32,575 nt of DNA from Methylococcaceae bacterium NSP1-2 (GTDB taxonomy: Bacteria > Pseudomonadota > Gammaproteobacteria > Methylococcales > Methylomonadaceae). The notes beneath the pieces were generated by a model. That model saw nothing but the letters and a program-made list of their open reading frames with translations, did no database searches and was not told the origin of the DNA. Positions 2-32,575 of the stretch are shown here, one piece after another; the first letter of the stretch is position 1; every line of letters starts with the position of its first letter. The DNA lies in NCBI GenBank assembly GCA_002256685.1, contig NQJH01000017.1, positions 1 through 32,575 of the forward strand, read 5' to 3'. The translations under genes were made by a program, and so were the position numbers.

Positions 2-1762
2 ATTGATGCTAATAAATGGGCAGTCAGTTCACGAGGTTTTAACGGTCGTCGGGCTAATAAATTACTGGTTCTAATCGATGGTCGTAGTGCCTATACTCGT
101 TCTTTTGCTGGCGTATACTGGGAAAATCAGGATGTCATGATGGAAGACATCGACCGTATCGAAGTTATTCGAGGTCCAGGAGCAACCTTATGGGGAGCTA
201 ATGCAGTCAATGGTGTCATCAATATTATTAGCAAAAATTCATCGAAGACACAGGGTGGTTCATTAAATGCAGGCGGCGGCACTGAGGAGCAGGGTTTTGG
301 TTCATTTCGTTATGGCACAAAATTCGGTGCAGATACCACAGCTAGAGCCTACATCAAAGGCTTTAATCGTGGTCAGAACACCTTGTTATCAGGCAACAAA
401 GCGGGTGATGACTGGAGTAAAGTGCAAGGCGGTTTTCGTATGGATTCACAATTAAGCACACAGGATGCGCTAACCGTTCAAGGTGATATTTATCAAACCA
501 ATATCAATCAGTTTTCTTATTATGCACAACTGGCACCCCCTTTTCAGCTTACCGAAAATGATAGCGATCACGCGTATGGCGGTAATCTGCTCGGTAAATT
601 GCAACATACTTTTTCGCCAACGTCGGATTATTCGTTACAGTTTTATTACGATACTTACACGCGCAATGAAGTTCCACTCTATGAAAAACGCGATACACTG
701 GATATTGATTTTCAGCACCGTTTCACTTTATTAGACTGGCATGAAATTGTTTGGGGACTGGACTACCGTTTTGGTCATGACAAACTTATTGGTAAACAAA
801 TACAAAATGGTACAACTCCCTATAATATAAATCCAGCCAGTGTGAATGACCAAGTAATCAGTGGCTTTATTCAGGATGAAATGGCACTGATAGACAATAA
901 ACTCTGGTTAACGATAGGTTCCAAATTTGAACACAACGATTACAGTGGTTTCGAGGGTCAACCCTCCGCGAAGATTATGTGGGCTCCCCATAATCAACAT
1001 CGGCTGTGGGCTAGTGTTTCAAGAGCAGTACGCACACCATCACGCGCAGAACGAGATCTTACCGCACTGAATAGTGTTATTCCTCCACAAACTTTGCCCG
1101 TCTCACCTTTCAGAACACCGACTACGTCGATAGTCATCCAAGGCAATCCTGATTATCACTCTGAAGAAGTTATTACTTATGAATTAGGTTATAGAACAAC
1201 CTTTTCTAAATCGGCTTCTTTGGATGTAACAGGGTTTTACAATAATTACCGTGATCTGCGCTACTCGCGTACAAAGTTGCCGATATTCAATGGTAGATCC
1301 TTGATACAGCCTTTAACGTTTACCAACAATCTACAGGGTGAAACCTATGGTGTCGAAATCGCCACCGTTTGGCAAATGCTGGACTGGTGGCGTTGGGATG
1401 TTAATTACAGTTGGCTTCATACCCAATTGAATTACAGCGGAAGCGGTCCACAAACGGGTATCAGTCCTCAGCAACGTGTTTCAATGCGTGGCGCACTGTC
1501 ACCTCAAAAAGATATTGATTTGGATTTTTGGTTTCGTTATGTGGATACCAATACTGCCGTGGGTACATTTGGCAGTATTGATATCAAACCCTACGTTACA
1601 GTTGATCTGCGTGCGGCATGGCGACCTTATCAAGGCATTGAGTTATCCTTGGTTGGTCAAAACTTGTTGGCACAAAAACACCTAGAATATGTGAACGAAA
1701 ATCAAACCTTACCGACCGCAATCGACCGAGGCATGTACGGAAAAATAAGCTGGAATTTTTGA
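2..1762 (+). CDS. TonB-dependent receptor, 5' truncated by window edge
   Basis: Frame is open from base 2 (IDANKWAVSSRGFNGRRANKLLVLIDGRS...). Plug-domain motif IDRIEVIRGPGATLWGANAVNGVINIISK, then beta-barrel-like sequence ending in aromatic SWNF. Confidence 0.93.
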   Translation: MDANKWAVSSRGFNGRRANKLLVLIDGRSAYTRSFAGVYWENQDVMMEDIDRIEVIRGPGATLWGANAVNGVINIISKNSSKTQGGSLNAGGGTEEQGFGSFRYGTKFGADTTARAYIKGFNRGQNTLLSGNKAGDDWSKVQGGFRMDSQLSTQDALTVQGDIYQTNINQFSYYAQLAPPFQLTENDSDHAYGGNLLGKLQHTFSPTSDYSLQFYYDTYTRNEVPLYEKRDTLDIDFQHRFTLLDWHEIVWGLDYRFGHDKLIGKQIQNGTTPYNINPASVNDQVISGFIQDEMALIDNKLWLTIGSKFEHNDYSGFEGQPSAKIMWAPHNQHRLWASVSRAVRTPSRAERDLTALNSVIPPQTLPVSPFRTPTTSIVIQGNPDYHSEEVITYELGYRTTFSKSASLDVTGFYNNYRDLRYSRTKLPIFNGRSLIQPLTFTNNLQGETYGVEIATVWQMLDWWRWDVNYSWLHTQLNYSGSGPQTGISPQQRVSMRGALSPQKDIDLDFWFRYVDTNTAVGTFGSIDIKPYVTVDLRAAWRPYQGIELSLVGQNLLAQKHLEYVNENQTLPTAIDRGMYGKISWNF

Positions 1763-1765
1763 CCA

Positions 1766-2305
1766 ATGATCAAACAGGTCAAAAAATTCCTACTGCCATT
1801 ATTGGGTCTGGGGTTATTGCTCAACACCCAATCGCCCATATTTGCCCAGTCGCTGGAAGAGCAAACGGTCTTAGCGGCTTTGGCACTGAATATTGTGCGT
1901 TTCACCACTTGGCCACCCGAAACACAACTGCAAGAATCTATTGATTTCTGTGTGGTAGGCGATAACGTCGTGCAACAATCTTTTACCAGTATTGACCATA
2001 AAGCGGTGGGCGATAAAACGCTACAAATTATTAACCTATCGCGCTTGCAAAATTTTGAACAGTGTCATGTGCTTTATGTCAGTGAGTTAAAACAGAATAT
2101 TTTGCTACAAGTGTTTGTCGAAATAAAAAAACGTCCGCTACTGACTATCGGCGAAGGCTACGATTTTGCGGCGCAAGGTGGCATGGTTGGCATGGAAAAT
2201 CTAAATGGCAAAATTACACTACATGTCAACCTGCCCGTGATGCGGGAATCAAATTTGAATATCAGCGCACGCTTATTAAAGCTAGCGCATATTATCGGTA
2301 ATTAA
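1766..2305 (+). CDS. YfiR family (DUF4154) periplasmic protein
   Basis: 179 aa with N-terminal signal-like segment, then LAALALNIVRFTTWP, FCVVGDN, CHVLYVS and LLTIGEGYDFAAQGGMVGM, typical of YfiR/DUF4154. Sits directly upstream of a CHASE8-like sensor protein. Confidence 0.85.
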   Translation: MIKQVKKFLLPLLGLGLLLNTQSPIFAQSLEEQTVLAALALNIVRFTTWPPETQLQESIDFCVVGDNVVQQSFTSIDHKAVGDKTLQIINLSRLQNFEQCHVLYVSELKQNILLQVFVEIKKRPLLTIGEGYDFAAQGGMVGMENLNGKITLHVNLPVMRESNLNISARLLKLAHIIGN

Positions 2306-2309
2306 AATT

Positions 2310-5300
2310 ATGGCTATGAAATGGTTTAAGAATGCGCCGATACGGATAAAACTCATTTTAATCATGACTTTAACTACGATGCTGGCTCTATTTTTGGCAA
2401 CATCTGCCGTAGTGATTAACGAATACTTCACCAAAAAAGACGACACCGAAAAACAACTGGTATTAATCGCGGATATTATTGCGTGGAACGGTTCTGCCTC
2501 CTTGACTTTTCATGATGTTCAAACTGCTCAAGAAATGCTAAAAGGACTTAATAGCCAACCTAGCTTGCTGTCTGCTGATTTATATGACAATGCTGGCAAT
2601 GTTTTTGCATCGTACCAATCACCCAAAAAGTTGAAACCGAGCTTATCCAACATAGACATTAAAACGCTTATTAGCGTTTCGCAAAACCACGCGCCTCCAC
2701 AAAACCTGATTCAATCCCTGCACACCCAATTAACAGATTGGTATAGCCTAGTATTCAAACCCAGTATTAAAGAGCTAGGGTCACCACTTTATAAACAAAC
2801 TATTATTTATGATGACCATAATACCCTACATTTGCTCAGGCCCATTTTGTTGGATGGTGAACTGCAAGGTATTTTACATTTAGCCGATGATCAAAGTGGT
2901 TTGCAGGCGTTACTCGATAGATTTTATTTAATTATTAGTCTGATTGTCGCTTTTACAGGACTATCCCTTTTTATTGTTTCTACTAAATTACAACAAGTTT
3001 TTCTTGCTCCGCTATTAGAACTGATGCACGCCATGCAGACGGTTACTCATGAGAAAAATTTTACTCACCGCATCACGAAAATCAACGCTGATGAATTTGG
3101 CGAAATGGCGACTGTTTATAACACCATGTTGACTGAAATTCAGCAGCGCGACCAACAGTTGAGTCAACATCGAGCGCATCTGGAACAACAGGTGATTAGT
3201 CGTACCAAAGAATTATCGGAAAAAAATCAGAGCCTTGAAACTGCTATTCAGGATGCAATCACCGCAAAAGAAGGGGCTGAATCCGCCAGTAAAGCAAAAT
3301 CACAGTTTCTTGCCAGCATGAGCCATGAAATTCGTACACCGATAAATGGCGTACTTGGTATGACTGAACTGTTACTTAATACCGAACTTAATAGCCGTCA
3401 AATACGCTTAGCAGAAACTTCTTTTCGTTCTGCCGAAACATTACTAGGGATTATTAATAATATTTTGGATTTTTCTAAAATTGAGGCGGGGAAATTTTCG
3501 CTAGTTTATAGCGATATTGATTTGCGCGATTTACTGGAAGAAACAGCAGCAATGCTGTCGATTCAAGCACATAATAAAGGGCTGGAGTTAATTTTAAATT
3601 TACCCAATGAATTAAACGGCATAGTGCGTTGCGATGCAGAGAGACTGCGGCAAATATTAATTAATTTATTGAGTAATGCGATTAAATTTACCGAGCACGG
3701 CGAGGTTCAATTAAAAGTCACGCTATTAAATAGCACTGATAAACGGCAAGAATTATTGTTCGAAGTGATAGATACAGGTTCTGGTATTGCTGCTGAACAA
3801 CAACTGTTTATTTTTGATAGTTTTACGCAAGTGGATAACACGACCACACGGCGTTTCGGTGGCACGGGTTTAGGGTTGACCATTTCTAAACAATTAGTAG
3901 AGATAATGGATGGGCAGTTGGAGCTGAGTAGCACAGTGGGCAAAGGCTCTTGTTTCCACTTTCGCCTGACTTTAGAGCAGAACCAACAAACGGTACCTGA
4001 AAAACAGGATATTAATGTGCTACAAGGCTTAGCGGTGCTAGTGGTTGATGACAATGCCACTCATCGCGGTGTTCTTTGTAAGCAATTATCCTATTGGGGT
4101 ATGCACTGTGAGTGTGTGGAAAATGGCGAACTGGCTTTAAATGCCTTGCTCAAGGCGGCACTTCTACATAGACCTTTTCAAATCGTGGTGTTGGATTGGC
4201 ACATGCCGCGTATGGAAGGACCCGAACTGGCACTGGCGATTAGGGCAGAACCGCTGATACCTAAGTTATCAATCGTGTTATTAAGTTCAGATAACCTAAT
4301 ATTAAAAAGCAACAAAGATCATGACTATAAAATTGATTACTTTTTGAATAAACCTGTCACACAAAAAAAACTATTGCATTGTTTATTAGAGTTATTGAAT
4401 ATTAGGCAAAATCAGCAGCAATATGAACTTCAGTCGATGATAAAAAAACACATTAAATTAGCCGCCAATATATTGGTAGCCGAAGATAATCTGATTAATC
4501 AAGAAGTCTGCATGGGAATGTTACGCGCTATTGGCTGTCAGGTGCAGATAGCCGATAATGGCAAGAATGCAGTTCAGGCATTTGAACAAGGTCACTATGA
4601 TTTGATTTTAATGGATTGTCACATGCCAGACATGGATGGTTTTCAAAGTACGAGTGCTATTCGGCAACTTGAACAACTGTCCAGCAACTCTACCCATATT
4701 CCGATTATTGCGTTAACGGCTAAGCCTTTTAATCAACAACAACTGCAAATGACACTGGAAAAATGGCTACCTTCTCAAGAAAGTGAGATAGGGAAAACGA
4801 CCAGCATAGTAATCGAAACACCACTTATAAAAATGCCCAAATCTATTCTCAATACTGAAGCACTTGAAAATTTACGCCCCTTAATCACAGCCACTGGCGA
4901 AAGTGTGCTGAACAAGGCGATAGGGCTGTTTTTGAGTAGTGTGACAGAACAGCTGACTAACATGGGCAATGCGTTAAATAATCAAGATGCTAAGACCTTA
5001 ACTAAAATTGCCCATAGCTTTAAATCGGCTTGTGCCAACTTAGGAGCGCAAAACCTAGCCGATTATGCCGCTGCTATTGAAACACTGGCTAGGGCAGGGC
5101 AATTGCAAGGTGTTGGGGTGTTAATAACAACAATAACAAATGAATTACCCGCCATTTTAACGGCATTAAATGAAGAAATTACCCGTCTCCCTACTACACA
5201 AATTATACAAACTGTATCTGCTCTACAACAGAAGCGAATTTTACTCGTCGATGATGAATTAAGTTTTCGCTTAGTGAGTCGTGAAGCCTTGCAAGCCGCC

Positions 5301-7724
5301 GGTTTTATTATTGATGAAGCGGTTAATGGTCACCAAGCTTTGGAAAAAGTTAAGCAACAGTTACCTGATGTGATACTGCTCGATGCCATCATGGATGATG
5401 GACTGGATGGTTTTGAAACCTGCGTACTATTACGAGAAGTATCAGGCATGACCGATGTACCTATCATTATGTCAACTGGCTTAGGTGATATAGCGTCTAT
5501 TAATCGCGCTTTTGATGTAGGAGCGACTGATTTTATTATTAAGCCGCTTAACTATCCTCTTATTATTCATCGGTTAAATTTCATTTTAAGAGCGGGTCAC
5601 AATACCGCTGAATTGAGAAACAGTAAAATTCAACTAACAGCGGCGCAACGGATAGCACGTTTAGGTTATTGGACGTGGAATACAAAAACGAATCACTTTG
5701 AAATTTCTGCCCATTTGGCAAAATTGTGTGGGATTAAACTAGAAAGCTTTGATTATACGCAGGATTGTTTTTTTCAACTGGTTCATCACCAAGACCGCGA
5801 TTTTGTGAAAAAACTCTTTGCTAAGGTCTCGCAAGGTCAGTCAGAACAAAAAGCAGATTTTCGCTTACAAGTAGTCGATGCTGACCCTATTGTTGTTCAC
5901 CAGGAAATAGATGCCATCAACGATTCTGGTGAGCCCATTATTATCGGTACCATACAAGATATTACTGCCCGCATACAGGCAGAAGCCGAGCTTAGCATTG
6001 CCGCAATTGCCTTTGAGTCACAGGAAGGCATGATGATTACAGACAACCAATGTGTTGTTTTGCGCGTTAATCAGGCTTTTACCGACATCACTGGCTACAC
6101 GGCTAACGAAATTATCGGTAAGTCTCCGCGTAATCTCCGTTCAGGTCGTCATGATAAAGATTTTTATAATAAAATGTGGTGCAGTATTAACCAGACAAAT
6201 TCGTGGGCTGGTGAAATATGGAATCGACGTAAAAACAGTGAAGTTTTTCCGGTGTGGTTAACCATCTCCGCCGTCAAAAACTATAATGACAAAGTGACGC
6301 ATTATGTTAGTTCCTACACCGACATTTCTGAACGCAAAGCCAACGAGGAACAAATCAAACAACTCGCCTTCTATGATCCACTCACTGGACTTGCCAACCG
6401 ACGACTACTGTTAGAACAACTAAAACACAGCATCAACATAGAACGACGCGAAGGCAAACAACTAGCACTGCTGATGCTTGATCTGGATCGCTTCAAAAAT
6501 GTCAACGATAGATGGGGGCATCTTGCAGGCGATGAATTACTGCAACAAGTGGCGCAACGTATCAAAGCAAAATTGCGTGATGTGGATATGGTTGCACGTT
6601 TAGGTGGGGATGAATTTGTGGTGTTGCTGGAAAATATCAGTCACTCAGAAGATGCAGCTCGCATTGCCCAAATGATCATCGCCGATTTAGCCAAACCTTT
6701 TAGATTAATGCAAAGTGACAATGCGCGAATCGGTACTAGCATCGGTATTGCTTTGTACCCACAGCACGGTGACTCTGCACAAATCCTGATGGATAATGCG
6801 GATATTGCGCTGTATCAAGCTAAAGCGCAGGGGCGAGGTTGTTATGCTTACTTTTCAGAAGAGCTGACCCATGCTGTTCGAGAACGCATTGCATTAGAAT
6901 CACGTTTGCAAAAAGCAATTGAATTGCAGGAATTTCGCGTTTTCTTTCAGCCACAAGTGAATATTATTACTGGGCATATTACGGGAGCAGAAGCCCTAGT
7001 GCGTTGGCAAGATCCTATTGAGGGTTTGATACAACCCAACCAGTTTATTCCCCTCGCCGAAGAAACTAATCTAATTATTGAAATAGGGGAGTGGGTATTA
7101 CGCGAAACCTGTAAACAAGGTCGGCAATGGTTGGATGCAGGATTAGCACCATTAATCTTAGCCGTTAATGTGTCATCTAAGCAGTTTCGTCATATTAACA
7201 TAGTTGATTTAGTGACTCAGGTACTACATGAAACAGGCTTTCCGGCTCAGCAGTTGGAATTGGAAATAACGGAAAGTGGTTTGATGGAGTGCCAAGATAA
7301 TCAAACTGATGATAACCTGATGGTGAATAAAAATGGGGTTATTAGCATTCTAAATGACCTGCGTGCACTGGGTGTTCGCCTTGCTATTGATGATTTTGGT
7401 ACGGGCTATTCATCTTTAGCCTATCTCAAACGCTTCCCCTTGGATGTGTTGAAAATCGACAAGAGCTTTATTGATGACATTCCTAACTTAAAAGATGATA
7501 TGGAAATTGCTGCCACCATTATTGCAATGGGACGTAACTTAGGCTTTCAAGTGTTAGCCGAAGGCGTGGAAACTGCGGAACAATTGGCTTTTTTACAAGA
7601 AAAAGGCTGTGACACTTATCAAGGCTTTTTCAAAAATAAACCGATGCCAGCAGAAGCCTTTGCCAACTTATTGCGAGAAGACCGTACCCTGCCTTCGATT
7701 AATATAGATAACATCTCTATCTAA
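2310..7724 (+). CDS. Hybrid sensor histidine kinase / diguanylate cyclase-phosphodiesterase (CHASE8-like, HAMP, HisKA, HATPase, REC, REC, Hpt, REC, PAS, PAS, GGDEF, EAL)
   Basis: 1804 aa. Motifs: SMSHEIRTPINGVLGM (HisKA), GGTGLGLTISKQL (HATPase), VVLDWHMP and LILMDCHMPDMDG (REC), AHSFKSACANLGA (Hpt), DVILLDAIMDDGLDGFE (REC), RLGGDEFVVLL (GGDEF), EALVRW and DDFGTGYSSLAYLKRFPLDVLKIDKSFI (EAL). Confidence 0.93.
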   Translation: MAMKWFKNAPIRIKLILIMTLTTMLALFLATSAVVINEYFTKKDDTEKQLVLIADIIAWNGSASLTFHDVQTAQEMLKGLNSQPSLLSADLYDNAGNVFASYQSPKKLKPSLSNIDIKTLISVSQNHAPPQNLIQSLHTQLTDWYSLVFKPSIKELGSPLYKQTIIYDDHNTLHLLRPILLDGELQGILHLADDQSGLQALLDRFYLIISLIVAFTGLSLFIVSTKLQQVFLAPLLELMHAMQTVTHEKNFTHRITKINADEFGEMATVYNTMLTEIQQRDQQLSQHRAHLEQQVISRTKELSEKNQSLETAIQDAITAKEGAESASKAKSQFLASMSHEIRTPINGVLGMTELLLNTELNSRQIRLAETSFRSAETLLGIINNILDFSKIEAGKFSLVYSDIDLRDLLEETAAMLSIQAHNKGLELILNLPNELNGIVRCDAERLRQILINLLSNAIKFTEHGEVQLKVTLLNSTDKRQELLFEVIDTGSGIAAEQQLFIFDSFTQVDNTTTRRFGGTGLGLTISKQLVEIMDGQLELSSTVGKGSCFHFRLTLEQNQQTVPEKQDINVLQGLAVLVVDDNATHRGVLCKQLSYWGMHCECVENGELALNALLKAALLHRPFQIVVLDWHMPRMEGPELALAIRAEPLIPKLSIVLLSSDNLILKSNKDHDYKIDYFLNKPVTQKKLLHCLLELLNIRQNQQQYELQSMIKKHIKLAANILVAEDNLINQEVCMGMLRAIGCQVQIADNGKNAVQAFEQGHYDLILMDCHMPDMDGFQSTSAIRQLEQLSSNSTHIPIIALTAKPFNQQQLQMTLEKWLPSQESEIGKTTSIVIETPLIKMPKSILNTEALENLRPLITATGESVLNKAIGLFLSSVTEQLTNMGNALNNQDAKTLTKIAHSFKSACANLGAQNLADYAAAIETLARAGQLQGVGVLITTITNELPAILTALNEEITRLPTTQIIQTVSALQQKRILLVDDELSFRLVSREALQAAGFIIDEAVNGHQALEKVKQQLPDVILLDAIMDDGLDGFETCVLLREVSGMTDVPIIMSTGLGDIASINRAFDVGATDFIIKPLNYPLIIHRLNFILRAGHNTAELRNSKIQLTAAQRIARLGYWTWNTKTNHFEISAHLAKLCGIKLESFDYTQDCFFQLVHHQDRDFVKKLFAKVSQGQSEQKADFRLQVVDADPIVVHQEIDAINDSGEPIIIGTIQDITARIQAEAELSIAAIAFESQEGMMITDNQCVVLRVNQAFTDITGYTANEIIGKSPRNLRSGRHDKDFYNKMWCSINQTNSWAGEIWNRRKNSEVFPVWLTISAVKNYNDKVTHYVSSYTDISERKANEEQIKQLAFYDPLTGLANRRLLLEQLKHSINIERREGKQLALLMLDLDRFKNVNDRWGHLAGDELLQQVAQRIKAKLRDVDMVARLGGDEFVVLLENISHSEDAARIAQMIIADLAKPFRLMQSDNARIGTSIGIALYPQHGDSAQILMDNADIALYQAKAQGRGCYAYFSEELTHAVRERIALESRLQKAIELQEFRVFFQPQVNIITGHITGAEALVRWQDPIEGLIQPNQFIPLAEETNLIIEIGEWVLRETCKQGRQWLDAGLAPLILAVNVSSKQFRHINIVDLVTQVLHETGFPAQQLELEITESGLMECQDNQTDDNLMVNKNGVISILNDLRALGVRLAIDDFGTGYSSLAYLKRFPLDVLKIDKSFIDDIPNLKDDMEIAATIIAMGRNLGFQVLAEGVETAEQLAFLQEKGCDTYQGFFKNKPMPAEAFANLLREDRTLPSINIDNISI

Positions 7725-7735
7725 ACGCTATTTAA

Positions 7736-8659
7736 CTATTTTCGATTTAATTGATCATAGACAACAACTTGATTTTTGCCATGCGCTTTAGCAAAGTAAA
7801 GCGCGTCATCGGCATTTTTTACGATGCTAATCATGGTGTCGCTAGGCGTACAATGGGCAACACCAAAACTACAAGTACAATGCCCCACCACTGAAAAAGA
7901 ATGATCAGCAATTATTTTGCATAATTTTTTGACAAAAGTAATCGTATTATTCAAGCTTTTTAGGTGTGGCACAATAATCATGAATTCCTCACCACCCCAA
8001 CGACCAAAACAATCTGAGAGGCGAATATTATCATTGATTAATTGCGCCATCTCTATCAAAACCACATCGCCTACTAAATGACCCTGCGTATCGTTAATTT
8101 TTTTGAAGTCATCAATATCAATTAATACCACACTAAACAAACTATTATAACGCGCCATATCGTAAATTTGTGCGTCCAAAACGTGGTTAAGGTGACTACG
8201 ATTGAACACTTTGGTGAGTTCATCATGTCGGTTGATTTCTACGAGTTCTTTGTTTTTTATCGCTAATAACGCATGAGCTTCTGCTAAACGGTTTTGCATG
8301 GCTTTCAGTTCGCAAATATCGACTTCAATAGTATATTTGACGGTTCGGTCATCTGACCAACATAAGGTTTTTTCATGATGCTGATACCAACAATCATTGT
8401 ATTCATTAAAACGTTCAAAAATTAGAGTGGTGTTATTAGGCTTACCCTGTTCATCAACTAATTGTTTAATTTTGCAATAATGACAAGGCGAATCTTCCTT
8501 ATAGATGGCTTCGTAGCAAACTTTATTGACACAGTCGCCATGCGCTTCTTTATACCTACGATTAGCATAAATGACTTGATAGGTTTTAATATCAACCACA
8601 TAAACACCAAAAGGAAACATCTCAAATAATGCTTCAAAAAGGTGGTTTTCTACCATCAT
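7736..8659 (-). CDS. PAS domain diguanylate cyclase
   Basis: RWGGEEFMII active site with RxxD (RLSD) five residues upstream; N-terminal PAS-like domain with cysteine motif PCHYC. Confidence 0.9.
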   Translation of the reverse strand: MMVENHLFEALFEMFPFGVYVVDIKTYQVIYANRRYKEAHGDCVNKVCYEAIYKEDSPCHYCKIKQLVDEQGKPNNTTLIFERFNEYNDCWYQHHEKTLCWSDDRTVKYTIEVDICELKAMQNRLAEAHALLAIKNKELVEINRHDELTKVFNRSHLNHVLDAQIYDMARYNSLFSVVLIDIDDFKKINDTQGHLVGDVVLIEMAQLINDNIRLSDCFGRWGGEEFMIIVPHLKSLNNTITFVKKLCKIIADHSFSVVGHCTCSFGVAHCTPSDTMISIVKNADDALYFAKAHGKNQVVVYDQLNRK

Positions 8660-9033
8660 AATTTATATTTCTCGTAAACTTGATTGATCATTTCTGCCAA
8701 CTTATCGGCTTTAATGGGTTTTAAAATGTAACCTTTCGCACCGATGTCAATCGACTCAATCACCATTTGTTCTTGTCCATGCGAAGTGACCATAATAATT
8801 AACGCTTTGGGAAAACGATTAATAATTTGTCGTGTGGCTTCTATGCCATCCATATCGGGCATGGTGATGTCCATTGTTACCATATCAGGTTGATATTGTT
8901 GGTAATAGGCTAAAGCCTCCGTACCTGTCTTGCAGGAACAAATAACGGAATGCCCTATTTGTTCTAAAATTTGCGTTAATTTTTTGATGGTAATGGATGA
9001 ATCATCCACCACCATAACGCGTAAGCTATCCAT
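8656..9033 (-). CDS. CheY-like single-domain response regulator
   Basis: MDSLRVMVVDDSSITIKKL...DMVTMDITMPDMDGIEATRQI...VTSHGQ...KGYILKPIKADKL. Start placed at 9033 because of an upstream AGGAGA RBS; the ORF track start is 9087. Overlaps the next gene by ATGA. Confidence 0.92.
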   Translation of the reverse strand: MDSLRVMVVDDSSITIKKLTQILEQIGHSVICSCKTGTEALAYYQQYQPDMVTMDITMPDMDGIEATRQIINRFPKALIIMVTSHGQEQMVIESIDIGAKGYILKPIKADKLAEMINQVYEKYKL

Positions 9034-9067
9034 GTAGTTCTCCTGCCTTATTTGGTTCTGTATAAAG

Positions 9068-9535
9068 TTACTTGAGCAAATAGACATCTAACGCACCGTA
9101 TTTTGTTATCAAATTGGCTTTATAAAACAAAGAATTTCGCTGACAGGCTATTTGTTGTGCAGCAGTGATTACCAGCGGCGGCGACATGATGATTTTTTTG
9201 TCAGTCTCATTAACATCTGCCAAGGTATTGCCTACGATAATGTTAATAATATCGCCTGCACTGTCAGTCAGTGCTTCTTCTTGTTCATCCTCTGCTATGT
9301 CTAAGTCAGCTGTATAGCGGGCGAAAATCTCATTAAAAAGACCCTTATCATAACTCAAGGCAACAAACATTTTGATACTGCCTTCTACATTAATTAACGA
9401 GGTTAAATAATTCAACTCCATTTTTTGAATAGTGTTTAACTCAGAGGTGGTACTGGTCGTTTCGATCATTAATTCGGTACTAAAAAAATCAATGACGGTG
9501 GACGACATTGCCCAATTAGGCGAATGTTCTGTCAT
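9068..9535 (-). CDS. CheX/CheC-like chemotaxis phosphatase
   Basis: 155 aa with VEGSIKMFVALSYDKGLFNEIFARY and DSAGDIINIIVGNTLAD, resembling the CheX/CheC helix motif. Located between a CheA-like kinase and a CheY-like protein. Exact start uncertain (9535 or 9508). Confidence 0.75.
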   Translation of the reverse strand: MTEHSPNWAMSSTVIDFFSTELMIETTSTTSELNTIQKMELNYLTSLINVEGSIKMFVALSYDKGLFNEIFARYTADLDIAEDEQEEALTDSAGDIINIIVGNTLADVNETDKKIIMSPPLVITAAQQIACQRNSLFYKANLITKYGALDVYLLK

Positions 9536-12251
9536 AGTCAGTTGATAATGAATCGTTAAAGGGAAGGGTGAAAGTAAAACAAGTGCCTTGTCCTAAAAAA
9601 CTGCTCACTATAACACTGCCCTGTATTTTTTCTAATTCTGCGTACACGGCGGCTAAACCGACACCTTGTCCAGAAATTAGCGTCACTTCGCTAGCCGTTG
9701 ATAAATTTGGCTCAAAAATCAATAGTAAACATTGCTGCTCGGTAAAGCTGTCTAGCTGTGCTTGCGTGTAACGTCCTAATGCGATACATTTTTGTTTTAA
9801 CTGTGCAATGTCTATACCCGCACCATCATCGGCGATAGTCATGATGATGGCGTGTTCTTTCTGGCTTACTTGGCAACGAATATTACCTAATTCTGGTTTG
9901 CCTGCTGCTTCACGTTGTTCAGGCGATTCAATGCCATGATCGACACAGTTACGAAATACATGAATCAAGGCTTTGCTAAAGCCATAAAAATAATCAGGGT
10001 CAACTAATACGCTATCGCCCTCGATAGTCAATTCAGCAATTTGCTTTTGTAAGCGCGTGGCTAACTGCTGCACAGTTTTTGAATAACTCGCTAATAAGGA
10101 TTTAAACTCCACAAAGCGTAAACGCTGCATTTTATGAATTAGCCCTGTAATATTATCAGACGATAAAGGTAACTCGGCAATTAACTGTTTAGCAAAGGCA
10201 ATGCTGTCTTTTAAAGCTTGCTCCGATACTTGAACCTGCCCTTTTTGATCAAAATAATGCTCGCCTAATGCGGTTTGTAAGTAATTTAAATCGTGTTGAA
10301 AATGTGTCGCCAAATCATGGGTTAGCAATAATTTCTTCAGTGCGATTTCAGAACAGTGTGCCGTGGTTTTCAATGCCGACAAATCGGCTTCTAGTTGATG
10401 CAAAACAGCGGGGCTATGTAATAAAGCTTTTTGCAAAAATACCCCTTTAAAAGTGTGAACCTTACGATATAACTGATCAATTTTATTCATTGTACTGCTA
10501 GGTTGTTGAACAATAGTTGAATAATCATGGTCAATAAAAAGCTGATAATCTTGCTTTAAATCAAAGAATTCTTTTGGTTCTGACACGACTTCCACGATAA
10601 ACAGCAAGCGTTTTTTCTCATCAATTAATTGCTGTTTTAACGCCTCGGCTTGCGTAATATCGACCATTTTCATCATCATGGTGTTATTTGTTAAGGGTCT
10701 ATACGAAGCGGCAATTATTTTTTGCTGTATTTTAAATTGTTTGGGCAATAAAGACAGTAGCAAGTTTTGTTTGAAGGTATCGGTTTCTCGTAAAATCCGC
10801 TGCATATTTTTTTGAAAGTTCGTCTGTTGTGTCAACTGGTCTGGAAAAAGCAGTAAATTAATTAACTTTCCCTCGATAGCTTGGCTAAATAAATGCGTAC
10901 ACTCTTCGCTATAACCGTCATCGATGACCATCATCGCATCAAAGGCTAAAAAACCTTCTCCCGAATTATTGAGCAAGGTTTGTAATTTTTCTAAGATATT
11001 GTTTAAGCTAGCGGTTCTGATGGCAACTTGCTCTTCTAATAACTTATTGGCTTGTTCTAATTGCTCAATAAAAAGCTGTTTTTGTTGCTGATTTTTTTCT
11101 ATTTCCAGCGTAATTTCGCTTCTTAAACGTTTATTCAGCAGCGCTCTTTGTACACTCAAGCCCCAAAACAACAATAAACCACTACTTAATACCGCTATAC
11201 CCCAGTAAATAATGGTTAAATCAGGTCGGGGATTTTTTTCATAAAGAAAGTCTTTTAACGGAAAGTTGGCAGGCAACATACCCAATTCACTGTAAGTATT
11301 GGCAATATGTCGCCAACGTCCTTCGTGCATATAGCCCATTTCGACTAATTTAGGCTGTATCAACGGTAACATTTGCTGATACTGAAACAACAGGTGTTCA
11401 CGGGGATAATGTTGAGAGTATTTTTTTAAAATCAGATCAATCATTTCATCGGGATGATCCATTGCATAAATCCAGCCTTTAATACTGGCTTCTACAAAGG
11501 CTTTGACTTGTTGCGGGTGTTTTTTAAGGTAGGCTTCAGTGGTAAACAGATTGTCACCATAAAAATCGATACCGCCTTCACGCGGCGAGAATAAGCCATA
11601 AGGAATATTTTTTTCTTGTAGATAAAACGGTTCATCGGTGGAGTACACTGACATTACATCAATATCACCTTTAATAAGACCGTTTACATTATCGGTTAGG
11701 GTCATTTTAGTAAACGCATTAGGTTCAATACGTTCATTACGCAAAAAGCCATCTATTTCACCTTCAAACGCAAAATCTAACGCGACTCTTTTACCGACAA
11801 TATCATGAATAGTGCCAATTTTTTCGCCTTTTTTGTACATCAACGCGATAGGCGAATGTTGAAAAATCACCGCCAAAACCACAACGGGCTGTTGCTTTGC
11901 TCTTTGTAATAATAAATCGCTAGTCCCTACACCGAACTCGCTTTCACCTTGCAACACTTTATCAATTAAATTCTGCCCTGGTTTACCTTCATCAATGGTC
12001 ACGTCAAAACCTGCATCACGGTAATAGCCCAGTTCTTGTGCCGCGTAATAACCTGCAAATTGAAACTGATGCAGCCATTTTAACTGCAAGGTTACTTTTT
12101 CAACGGGGTGGGGCGATGAACTGTCTTTTGATGGCTTTAGTTTTTCCAACCAAGTCGTTAATGCGGTCGGAATGATGGACTGCTCAGCACTTGCCGCCGA
12201 TACAAAACTGCTGATTAATAATAGGATGACGACGTTAATTAATTTTTTCAC
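9516..12251 (-). CDS. Membrane sensor kinase: NMT1/THI5-like substrate-binding domain fused to CheA-like Hpt and HATPase
   Basis: Signal peptide, then VTLQLKWLHQFQFAGYYAAQELGYYRDAGFDVTIDEGKPGQN (NMT1/THI5-like), TM IIYWGIAVLSSGLLLFWGLSV, coiled coil, Hpt-like KVHTFKGVF, CheA-like ATPase RNCVDHGIESPEQREAAGKPELG, DDGAGID and GQGVGLAAVYAELEKIQG. Confidence 0.88.
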   Translation of the reverse strand: MKKLINVVILLLISSFVSAASAEQSIIPTALTTWLEKLKPSKDSSSPHPVEKVTLQLKWLHQFQFAGYYAAQELGYYRDAGFDVTIDEGKPGQNLIDKVLQGESEFGVGTSDLLLQRAKQQPVVVLAVIFQHSPIALMYKKGEKIGTIHDIVGKRVALDFAFEGEIDGFLRNERIEPNAFTKMTLTDNVNGLIKGDIDVMSVYSTDEPFYLQEKNIPYGLFSPREGGIDFYGDNLFTTEAYLKKHPQQVKAFVEASIKGWIYAMDHPDEMIDLILKKYSQHYPREHLLFQYQQMLPLIQPKLVEMGYMHEGRWRHIANTYSELGMLPANFPLKDFLYEKNPRPDLTIIYWGIAVLSSGLLLFWGLSVQRALLNKRLRSEITLEIEKNQQQKQLFIEQLEQANKLLEEQVAIRTASLNNILEKLQTLLNNSGEGFLAFDAMMVIDDGYSEECTHLFSQAIEGKLINLLLFPDQLTQQTNFQKNMQRILRETDTFKQNLLLSLLPKQFKIQQKIIAASYRPLTNNTMMMKMVDITQAEALKQQLIDEKKRLLFIVEVVSEPKEFFDLKQDYQLFIDHDYSTIVQQPSSTMNKIDQLYRKVHTFKGVFLQKALLHSPAVLHQLEADLSALKTTAHCSEIALKKLLLTHDLATHFQHDLNYLQTALGEHYFDQKGQVQVSEQALKDSIAFAKQLIAELPLSSDNITGLIHKMQRLRFVEFKSLLASYSKTVQQLATRLQKQIAELTIEGDSVLVDPDYFYGFSKALIHVFRNCVDHGIESPEQREAAGKPELGNIRCQVSQKEHAIIMTIADDGAGIDIAQLKQKCIALGRYTQAQLDSFTEQQCLLLIFEPNLSTASEVTLISGQGVGLAAVYAELEKIQGSVIVSSFLGQGTCFTFTLPFNDSLSTDYDRTFA

Positions 12252-12364: not shown

Positions 12365-12398
12365 CTGTCACACTATTGTCATATAAAATTAATATGCT
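12365..12398 (+). promoter_or_regulatory. Putative Pho box plus -10 upstream of pstS
   Basis: CTGTCAC-ACTA-TTGTCAT (7-4-7 direct repeat, 12365-12382), then TATGCT at 12393-12398, the spacing expected for a PhoB-activated promoter. Confidence 0.7.
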
Positions 12399-26436: not shown

Positions 26437-27219
26437 TTATTCTTTTCCTATCCATATCTCTAGTACACCTTCCTTTGCTTTCAGATTGGGTTGCACGGTA
26501 TAGACCTCAAGTTTAGTTATACTTTTGATAATTGACGCAAGCACTTCCGCTTTTTCTTTGTCGCTAGAATTAAAATAGCGTACCTGAGTTTTTGCAGGAA
26601 TTTTTTTGCTGTCAATTTCCTCAACTCCAGGCGCGATAATCATGTTGTTGCGAAGATTTTTCTGAATATCATTAGCTATAGATTGCTTACTTTTTTCATC
26701 TTTATCTACTTGAATATAAATTAAAGAGTTCCGAAGCTTTTGATAATATGTGCTTATATCTTCAGATGGAGATAGGGCGGGATTAGTTTTGTCGTTACTT
26801 ATCTTTTCTGCTTCAGCATCATTGGCTGATCCAGACTTTGGTTTCAATGACTCAATTTCCGTAGCCACCGTATTTATTGCTTCGTTGACAGCCACGAATA
26901 CTGGTCGTTTCTCGTCCCCAAATGCCTTTTCCAAAGCATTGAGAGCCGCCCAAGAAGCTCGAAACTTACCAGGTTCCGTCGCACTCAGATTAGCTAAAAA
27001 TGGCGCAATTAACGCCGCGTCTGCACGAGCTTTTTCTTGTTCTAATTCACTCGAAGATTTAAATATATTTTGAATAACTGTTGCAGAGACTATTGCGCCA
27101 AATAAAAATACGATTAGTGGTGATTTCGCTATATTATTGAACGCATCCCATATTTTTTTAACTGTCGATGGTGGTGGATTTTCTGGTTGTTTAAGTAAAA
27201 CGGTAAATTCTCGATTCAT
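26437..27219 (-). CDS. Hypothetical single-TM protein; C-terminal half vaguely LytR_C/SPOR-like
   Basis: MNREFTVLLKQ...SPLIVFLFGAIVSATVIQNIF TM segment, then QVRYFNSSDKEKAEVLASIIKSITKLEVYTVQPNLKAKEGVLEIWIGKE. Start at 27219 preceded by AGGTGATC; the ORF track start of 27297 would run into a repeat. Confidence 0.6.
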   Translation of the reverse strand: MNREFTVLLKQPENPPPSTVKKIWDAFNNIAKSPLIVFLFGAIVSATVIQNIFKSSSELEQEKARADAALIAPFLANLSATEPGKFRASWAALNALEKAFGDEKRPVFVAVNEAINTVATEIESLKPKSGSANDAEAEKISNDKTNPALSPSEDISTYYQKLRNSLIYIQVDKDEKSKQSIANDIQKNLRNNMIIAPGVEEIDSKKIPAKTQVRYFNSSDKEKAEVLASIIKSITKLEVYTVQPNLKAKEGVLEIWIGKE

Positions 27220-27255
27220 GATGATCACCTTTATTTTGAGTTTAACCAAATCAGA

Positions 27256-27357
27256 TCGTAGGCTGCTGGGATAACGTAAGGAATCCCAGCGCAACATTCA
27301 CAAAATGTAGGGATTCACTACATGCTCTATCGAGTCGTACCTCATCATAACCTACGA
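27256..27357. repeat. Intergenic palindromic element
   Basis: Terminal TCGTAGG / CCTACGA; internal inverted pairs GCTGGGAT / ATCCCAGC and TGTAG / CTACA. Confidence 0.55.
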
Positions 27358-30894: not shown

Positions 30895-32575
30895 TTACCA
30901 ACTGAAGCCTGCACCCGCATTAGCACTCATTTGACTGGTGCTACCGAAGCCGGAACCCATTGCTGCACTTAAGCGAATGTGTTCACCTACGTCCGCCTTA
31001 CCACCAAATGCAATCGCCTGTTGACCTGCATAAAAACCGCTACCCATACCGACTGAGTAATGGTGTCCTGCCATCGGTGCGGGAATAGCCGCCATTGCAG
31101 AGGCTTGTGAAATACCACTGTAAGCCCGCTCCGCAATGTTATTCATATCACCTGACAGATCCTGTAATTGACCATAGTTGACGGCATCGTATTTAGTCGT
31201 ACCATCCGCAACGCCAGTAACTTTAGCAGGACCGCCTGTGGAATTACTAAAGGTTGCGCCATTATCATTCATCGTTAATTTGGCAGGTTGTTGTGTACCA
31301 CCTGACAACTCGGTTCTATCTTCGTAGACTTTCAGACCATTGGTTTGACCTAGCCCGTTCGTTAAGGTGGTAGAAGCCACTGACTCTGGTGCGGGAGCGA
31401 CTGCCCCCGTGACAGGATCAACGACTGGAGCCCCTTTGACTACAACACCTGTTTGACCCGTTACGCCTGCTGTAGCACCCTCTAATTTACTGGTACCTAG
31501 ATCACCGACTACTGTTGAAGTCGCACCTGTTTTACCAACAAAAGCGGTATCACCGTTGACATAAAGATTACCATCGACCAGCGTATTACCACTGACTTTA
31601 TCTTGGTATGTCACCCCATTTAATCGATCACCTATGGTTGTATTAGGTGCAACAGTAGCTGGCGTACTAAGAACCTCTATGCCGCCAGAACCAGTACTCG
31701 CGCCTGGATTAGTCGCGGTAATACCCGTCACCCCGTTACTAGCTAATGTTCCAGGAGCTCCACCCAGTAGGGTCGTTCCAGTGCTATTCAGGGTAATGGA
31801 TGAAGAGGGCGCACCTGCTGTTTCGCCACCGCCAGTTAATCGTGTTCTATCTTCAAACACTTGCAGACCATTGGTTGTCCCTACACCGTTTGTCAACGTA
31901 GTAGAGGCTACAGATTCTACTTTAGTAGTATTTGTCACTAAATCAGTAACAGGGGCAGTTGTGGTAATACCCGTCTGCCCGATGACACCAGTGGTTTTCC
32001 CCGCGAGCTGACTACTAGCGAGATTGCTACTCGCATCAACCGTTGAAGTCGCCGAATGCGTACCGACAAAAGCCGTATCACCATTAACGTAAAGGTTCCC
32101 ATCTATAAACTCATTACCAGCAACCTGAGTCTGATACTGCGCCCCTGCCAGTCGATCACCAATCGTCGTATTGGCAGCGATAGTTTTGGTAAGCCCCTGT
32201 TTATAAGTAATCACGCCCCCCGTTCCATTTACAACATCATTGGTACCCGTGACACCATTAGAGCTTAATGGTGCCGTTGGATCACCTAGGATTCGATCTG
32301 CGGCGAGACTACCAGGATCAATATTAAGACCAATAACCGTGGCGTTGCTCATATTAAGTACGCCATTGATATTAGTCGTACCCGTCAGCGTAGTATTGCC
32401 CGTGTTAGTTAAATTACCTATGTTGTTAAGTGGTCCCGTATTATTAAGCCCCGACAGGATAGTTTGACCAGTCACATTGAGCGTGGTAGCCGTGATATTG
32501 CCTGCGGTCACATTACCTAACGTAGAGTTTCCTAACGACGTAAGATTGGTGAAATTACCATTATCCGCCGTGACA
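30895..32575 (-). CDS. Trimeric autotransporter adhesin-like protein with YadA-type anchor; truncated by window edge
   Basis: Frame stays open to base 32575 (VTADNGNFTNLTSLGNSTLGNVTAGN...). Low-complexity T/N/G repeats, then ...NIAERAYSGISQASAMAAIPAPMAGHHYSVGMGSGFYAGQQAIAFGGKADVGEHIRLSAAMGSGFGSTSQMSANAGAGFSW, a YadA anchor. Confidence 0.88.
   Translation of the reverse strand, partial: VTADNGNFTNLTSLGNSTLGNVTAGNITATTLNVTGQTILSGLNNTGPLNNIGNLTNTGNTTLTGTTNINGVLNMSNATVIGLNIDPGSLAADRILGDPTAPLSSNGVTGTNDVVNGTGGVITYKQGLTKTIAANTTIGDRLAGAQYQTQVAGNEFIDGNLYVNGDTAFVGTHSATSTVDASSNLASSQLAGKTTGVIGQTGITTTAPVTDLVTNTTKVESVASTTLTNGVGTTNGLQVFEDRTRLTGGGETAGAPSSSITLNSTGTTLLGGAPGTLASNGVTGITATNPGASTGSGGIEVLSTPATVAPNTTIGDRLNGVTYQDKVSGNTLVDGNLYVNGDTAFVGKTGATSTVVGDLGTSKLEGATAGVTGQTGVVVKGAPVVDPVTGAVAPAPESVASTTLTNGLGQTNGLKVYEDRTELSGGTQQPAKLTMNDNGATFSNSTGGPAKVTGVADGTTKYDAVNYGQLQDLSGDMNNIAERAYSGISQASAMAAIPAPMAGHHYSVGMGSGFYAGQQAIAFGGKADVGEHIRLSAAMGSGFGSTSQMSANAGAGFSW
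31333..32120 (-). repeat. Tandem module duplication in adhesin stalk
   Basis: DGNLYVNGDTAFVG...ATSTV and ESVASTTLTNG(V/L)GxTNGLxVxEDRTxLxGG each occur twice, offset by about 528-531 bp. Confidence 0.85.

Follow-up and report, generated by a model that had tools for sequence, protein, structure and literature searches.

The four-gene operon

The window, a stretch of 32,575 nucleotides (nt) from Methylococcaceae bacterium NSP1-2 (contig NQJH01000017.1, positions 1 to 32,575), contains on its minus strand an operon that combines a receptor-fused CheA-like histidine kinase with a CheX-type phosphatase, a stand-alone CheY and a diguanylate cyclase, in the order kinase, CheX, CheY, PAS-GGDEF. A sequence-only reading had seen in it a chemotaxis-type relay rewired to control cyclic di-GMP (c-di-GMP), and the four open reading frames (ORFs) that it listed were all found:

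9516..12251, minus strand: receptor-fused CheA-like histidine kinase, 911 amino acids (aa), GTG start; exported NMT1 domain, transmembrane (TM) helix, coiled coil, PAS-like domain, Hpt and CheA-type ATPase
9068..9535, minus strand: CheX-type CheY-P phosphatase (PF13690), D95xxN98 motif
8656..9087, minus strand: stand-alone CheY (PF00072), likely true start at 9033; phospho-acceptor Asp73 (ORF numbering)
7736..8659, minus strand: PAS-GGDEF diguanylate cyclase; three-cysteine PAS (C48, C59, C62), coiled coil, GGEEF motif 222-226, RxxD I-site 213-216

All four products score above the Pfam cut-off for their catalytic family, and the catalytic motifs are intact in each. The same gene order, in the same position divergent from pstS, is found in a congener (G002), whose kinase is 78% identical. 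The overlapping or close spacing noted earlier holds for the CheY and cyclase genes, which share 4 nt; the 20-nt overlaps may be partly ORF-calling artefacts, as the G002 CheY orthologue begins at a methionine equivalent to window position 9033 and the kinase and CheX genes of that genome do not overlap.

Domain structure of the kinase

The kinase is built of the following parts:

11445..12068, minus strand: NMT1/THI5-like solute-binding sensor domain, residues 62-269 (PF09084, E 4.5e-45, 158.9 bits)
11148..11219, minus strand: single TM helix, about residues 345-368, read from the sequence
minus strand, residues 368-428: coiled coil right after the TM helix, a long helix in the AlphaFold model
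10659..10958, minus strand: PAS-like domain, residues 432-531, with LLNxSGxGFLxF just upstream; conserved in 15 kinases, high-confidence fold
10266..10577, minus strand: Hpt (P1-like) helical bundle with phospho-acceptor His599 in KVHTFKG, from the family alignment, the CheA P1 alignment and Pfam matches of relatives
9555..10118, minus strand: CheA-type ATPase (P4) with N box HVFRNCVDHGIE and G boxes; the chain stops shortly beyond

Pfam, alignments and fold together confirm the anatomy proposed from the sequence, namely a sensor-Hpt-ATPase kinase without a P5 domain, followed by CheX, CheY and a GGEEF cyclase. Within the kinase, the solute-binding domain and the ATPase (HATPase_c, residues 760-899, E 5e-15) were called by Pfam; the Hpt was not called in the window kinase itself and is supported by alignment and fold. 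Pfam does call it in several relatives, the His-Thr-x-Lys-Gly motif is invariant in family alignment A1 and almost so in A3, and the histidine is invariant in the 15 kinases. The region also aligns weakly with the CheA P1 domain of 6s1k and forms a helical bundle in the AlphaFold model. The confident part of this model spans roughly residues 430-900; residues 118-233 score below 50, and the sensor domain was not interpreted from it. The closest solved structures are CheA P3P4 and P4 (Foldseek against P3P4 4xiv, E 8e-15). Foldseek aligned 247 columns to Thermotoga maritima P3P4, the helices preceding P4 being short (677-693 and 699-710) and without a match to the P3 family.

In the window kinase nothing follows the last strand of the ATPase, so that a CheW-like P5 domain is absent, and no CheW match was found on the window contig. 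P5 is one of the four core domains of CheA, which is described without an input domain (PMC10782961). Lacking P5 and bearing a sensor, the kinase falls outside the definition of CheA, yet it probably works like one.

CheX, CheY and the cyclase

The CheX protein matches its Pfam family above the cut-off (E 4.2e-12) and aligns with the CheX structures 1xko and 3hm4. The [D/E]xxN pair is kept in all 49 homologues compared; the window protein has Asp where most have Glu. Inactivation by this Glu to Asp change was considered and dismissed, since Asp occurs in 17 of the 49 and the Asn is invariant. CheY is a single receiver domain (Response_reg, E 1.2e-30), in which the DD, D and K residues are invariant among 56 homologues and the T/S and Y/F positions conserved.

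The cyclase matches GGDEF (E 4.4e-40) and PAS_8 (E 7.8e-5), and its I-site reads RLSD. Its N-terminus is a PAS domain and, unlike the WspR/PleD/Rrp1 type, it has no receiver domain of its own. Identity with SiaD was rejected, the match lying below the cut-off and no SiaA, SiaB or SiaC being seen in the operon.

Distribution and linkage of the kinase core

Searches with the whole kinase were dominated by NMT1 sensors and by the ATPases of ordinary CheA proteins, and a query from the middle of the kinase and a profile of its core (PAS-like domain, Hpt and ATPase) were used instead. The mid-region is present in 27 of the 311 genomes of the order Methylococcales. One class of these relatives (genera g13, g14 and g24) has kinase-CheX-CheY with other sensors and without an adjoining cyclase; the more distant class II (loci L039 and L093-L103) has a kinase, a cytoplasmic protein resembling the tip of a methyl-accepting chemotaxis protein (MCP), two CheX-like proteins and CheY. 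The class II genes (L039, 3319-9106, and L093-L103) encode a HAMP-Hpt-ATPase kinase, a 318-aa MCP-tip-only protein, a short CheX-like protein, a 328-aa CheX and CheY, in an order conserved across genera.

The core profile matched over its full length in 6 of 369 gammaproteobacterial genomes, the window genome included, with a clear separation between these full-core kinases (E <=1e-104) and ordinary CheA (about 1e-54 or weaker). A scan across phyla, with one genome per species and the best 80 loci retained, recovered full-core kinases from Myxococcota, Thermodesulfobacteriota, alpha- and beta-proteobacteria, Campylobacterota, Bacillota, Spirochaetota, Cloacimonadota, Bdellovibrionota and Fibrobacterota, which rules out a curiosity of the Methylococcales.

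The sequence-only reading had proposed a neighbourhood search for co-occurrence of the four families, and the scan bears this association out. Among the matches listed, and as indicative rates rather than a census (a single scan, with profiles trained mainly on CheX-linked kinases), 24 of the 39 full-core kinases have CheX as a neighbour or fusion, 28 have CheY, 22 have both and 9, at 7 loci, have the whole set of four genes; the corresponding figures for the 45 control CheA-type ATPases of the same scan are 5, 17, 4 and 0. CheX usually lies within 170 nt after a full-core kinase, against 600-2031 nt in the five control cases. All four genes also occur together in Rhodocyclales, Rhodospirillaceae, another beta-proteobacterium, Burkholderiaceae, Desulfovibrionaceae and Arcobacteraceae, and neither MCP nor CheW was seen at those loci. 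The sequence-only reading had named a lack of conserved gene order as grounds for refutation, and on this point the outcome is in its favour. CheX is fused to the C-terminus of the kinase in four lineages (Syntrophomonas, with S. palmitatica among the isolates, Chromobacterium, a Firmicute metagenome-assembled genome and the gamma-proteobacterium G527). Directly before the fusion gene of Chromobacterium alticapitis (L125, 930-4892) lies a separate gene for an SBP_bac_3 protein.

The sensors carried by the kinase core are diverse: NMT1 (the window, L127 and L131), stretches of NMT1 and SBP_bac_3 together (L077), SBP_bac_3 (L120), dCache_3 (L127), a seven-TM domain (L123), PAS_7 (L119) and HAMP (L125). 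Kinases with an NMT1 sensor (the window, L077 and Arcobacteraceae) are placed apart from one another in the tree of the core, and each Arcobacteraceae NMT1 kinase pairs with a tandem neighbour that bears another sensor. Because NMT1 kinases are scattered in this way and tandem kinases differ in their sensors, the system is not defined by its ligand. Of the rewired relay first proposed, comparative genomics supports the core (receptor wiring, CheX as off-switch, c-di-GMP as output) but not the ligand class (pyrimidines, sulfonates and similar compounds), NMT1 being one sensor among many. The tree path from the window kinase to those of Myxococcota and Desulfovibrio is shorter than that to other Methylococcales kinases, which suggests horizontal transfer.

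Other arrangements accompany these kinases. In Arcobacteraceae (L127, 6279-15499; L131, 4606-13521) two tandem kinases share a single CheX, a single CheY and a pair of PAS effectors, and a four-gene operon at L128 (3531-9470) encodes a 1979-aa kinase whose core is preceded by Ser/Thr kinase, AAA and GAF domains. In Dethiobacter (L135, 7006-11455) CheY and a full-core kinase are followed by a complete dCache-HAMP MCP. Given this downstream MCP and the MCP-tip protein of class II, it may be that some relatives communicate with receptors.

The three-cysteine PAS domain

The cysteines of the cyclase PAS form an invariant C-x10-C-x2-C motif. A profile trained on just two sequences, those of the window and of G002, picked up 13 genes at 10 additional loci, each a full-core locus in which the gene lies on the same strand, downstream of kinase-CheX-CheY; the sole match among 46 control loci had an E value of 2e-4. 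Only four matches below 1e-40 were present in the 369 gammaproteobacterial genomes, all in this operon type, including two on which the profile had not been trained. The domain is found on GGDEF cyclases (L119, L120, L121, L122, L127, L128, L131 and L209) and on histidine kinases (L121, L127, L131, L210 and L211). At L121, L127 and L131 it heads two different effectors, a cyclase and a histidine kinase, within one operon, as would fit a shared signal-receiving domain. Since the PAS stays with CheY while sensor and effector change, it is best read, on comparative grounds, as the entry point of the CheY signal.

The operon in its genus and genome

The operon is divergent from pstSCAB-phoU in the window genome (G000, assembly 88% complete) and in G002. 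In another congener, G001, the first 121 kinase codons are fused to the last 27 cyclase codons (L112, 3742-4162; junction at about cyclase codon 281), the scar of a deletion that took out the whole unit. Only the first 23 kinase codons are left in G003, beside unrelated sequence that is probably an insertion element, and the operon is absent from congeners G004 to G007. Between the operon and pstS lies one further feature:

12365..12382, plus strand: Pho-box-like site CTGTCACACTATTGTCAT, between the operon and divergent pstS, conserved in 8 of 8 congeners

The site is conserved with or without the operon and is therefore assigned to pstS.

FliM, the flagellar switch target of CheY, is absent from all eight genomes of the genus, four of which are at least 90% complete with low contamination, and no MCP match was found in the 88% complete G000. 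The usual outlet of CheY is thus missing. G000 has one conventional CheA with CheW on contig C324, the latter being the only CheW matches of the genome; its single CheX is that of the operon. Three PilZ proteins are encoded and would be available as c-di-GMP receivers. Six more contigs (C366, C287, C29, C93, C337 and C327) contain NMT1-family matches, with a 726-aa ORF on C366.

A probable receptor-fused relay to c-di-GMP and its alternatives

The operon is best explained, with a probability of about 0.6, as a self-contained, receptor-fused and CheW-independent chemosensory relay that sets c-di-GMP through phosphorylated CheY (CheY~P) and the PAS domain. A periplasmic ligand would bind the NMT1 domain, and the signal would cross the single TM helix, the coiled coil and the PAS-like domain to alter autophosphorylation of the kinase's own His599 by the CheA-type ATPase. 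With a sensor of its own and no P5 to bind CheW, the kinase should need neither MCP nor CheW. The phosphoryl group would pass from His599 to Asp73 of the stand-alone CheY, and CheX would strip it from CheY~P, resetting the signal. Through the three-cysteine PAS, CheY~P would then alter the activity of the adjoining cyclase, so that the ligand sets c-di-GMP. Ligand control, phosphotransfer, CheX action and the CheY~P-to-PAS step, which may be of either sign, are what we infer from the anatomy and its conservation.

Several points weigh against this relay. Most Methylococcales relatives are kinase-CheX-CheY without an adjoining cyclase, so that CheY must act there on some other target; the PAS could respond to redox or metal independently of CheY; the neighbour counts come from one scan of the best 80 loci, with profiles from mostly CheX-adjoining kinases; and loss of the operon from G001, and probably from G003, shows it to be dispensable. 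The main rival is parallel inputs, a possible but doubtful arrangement in which the kinase-CheX-CheY relay has a separate target, such as pili or another regulator, and the PAS-GGDEF protein senses a cue of its own through the cysteines and is merely co-expressed. The absence of a receiver domain from the cyclase, the invariant cysteines, which could bind metal or sense redox, and the triplets without a cyclase are in keeping with such an arrangement. It fits poorly with a PAS that is tightly and almost exclusively linked to CheY in several phyla, despite different sensors, and that occurs on two effector types within one operon.

An ordinary chemosensory (ACF-class) or chemotaxis pathway, with MCP and CheW encoded elsewhere in the genome, is very improbable. 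The CheA-type ATPase, the CheW and conventional CheA on C324 and the MCP-tip protein of class II could be cited for it, but neither the window kinase nor the relatives scanned have the P5 docking domain, the sensor is part of the kinase itself, the incomplete G000 gave no MCP match, the locus has neither MCP nor CheW and the genus has no FliM. Equally hard to sustain is a phosphate-starvation unit tied to the divergent pst operon. The position beside pstSCAB-phoU in G000 and G002 points that way, as do the remnants left at the equivalent place in G001 and G003; the Pho-box-like site, however, is just as conserved where the operon is absent, of the Methylococcales loci compared those of this genus alone have PstS next to the module, and the sensor is NMT1 rather than a phosphate binder.

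Comparison with known systems

With the CheA of chemotaxis systems (F, Tfp and ACF) the operon shares the Hpt phosphodonor, the CheA-type ATPase, the CheY partner and the CheX phosphatase; it differs in the kinase's own sensor and missing CheW-like P5. In the Wsp system a chemosensory-type kinase controls the GGDEF enzyme WspR by way of an MCP, CheW and a receiver-GGDEF protein, whereas here MCP and CheW are absent and a separate CheY adjoins a PAS-GGDEF protein. Vibrio VieS acts on a phosphodiesterase. It is a PBPb-TM-coiled coil-kinase-Hpt sensor linked to c-di-GMP (PMC8789113), with a DHp-type kinase and without CheX or CheY. In Borrelia Hk1-Rrp1 a sensor kinase of the solute-binding-protein type adjoins a diguanylate cyclase (PMC4013479), but Hk1 is of the hybrid type, with REC and Hpt besides the kinase core, Rrp1 is itself the response regulator and the unit has no CheX.

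A precedent for the CheY-cyclase step is Shewanella CheY3, a stand-alone CheY that binds the diguanylate cyclases PdgA, PdgB and SO4207, the last more strongly when CheY3 is a phospho-mimic (PMC7666153). CheY3, however, belongs to a flagellar system, and SO4207 has seven TM segments before GGDEF rather than a three-cysteine PAS. Leptospira CheA-CheC/CheX fusions, which are F1 CheAs, join the kinase and a CheY phosphatase within a single polypeptide (PMC10782961); the kinase-CheX fusions described above are on P5-less, sensor-bearing kinases. HmrABCX of Caulobacter was rejected as a described version of the operon, as it has a hybrid kinase and two Hpt-type proteins and CheX is not mentioned.

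Beyond the window, the chances are about even that these loci represent a widespread architecture between two-component systems and chemosensory arrays, with sensor-swappable P5-less kinases, dedicated CheX and CheY, and the three-cysteine PAS as a CheY~P input module for cyclases and histidine kinases. No description of it was found in the open-licence literature searched, and its novelty is provisional. If the relay is correct, the fast, resettable chemistry of CheA, CheY and CheX works without receptor arrays, directly on ordinary membrane receptors, and a dedicated PAS domain lets a stand-alone CheY drive c-di-GMP. CheX/CheY pairs that lie outside chemotaxis operons would then gain a function open to testing, as would many genes whose annotation is merely PAS-GGDEF protein or histidine kinase.

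Other genes of the window

Positions 2-7724, on the plus strand, form a second c-di-GMP signalling cluster, convergent with the kinase-CheX-CheY-cyclase operon. It encodes a TonB-dependent receptor (TOL_0244 family), a YfiR-like periplasmic protein (TOL_0243 family) and a 1804-aa protein with the domain order CHASE8-HAMP-HisKA-HATPase-REC-REC-Hpt-REC-PAS-GGDEF-EAL. On the minus strand, a 286-aa ORF at 26437-27297 has no Pfam match at E<=0.001, and 30895-32511 encodes a YadA-type trimeric autotransporter adhesin.

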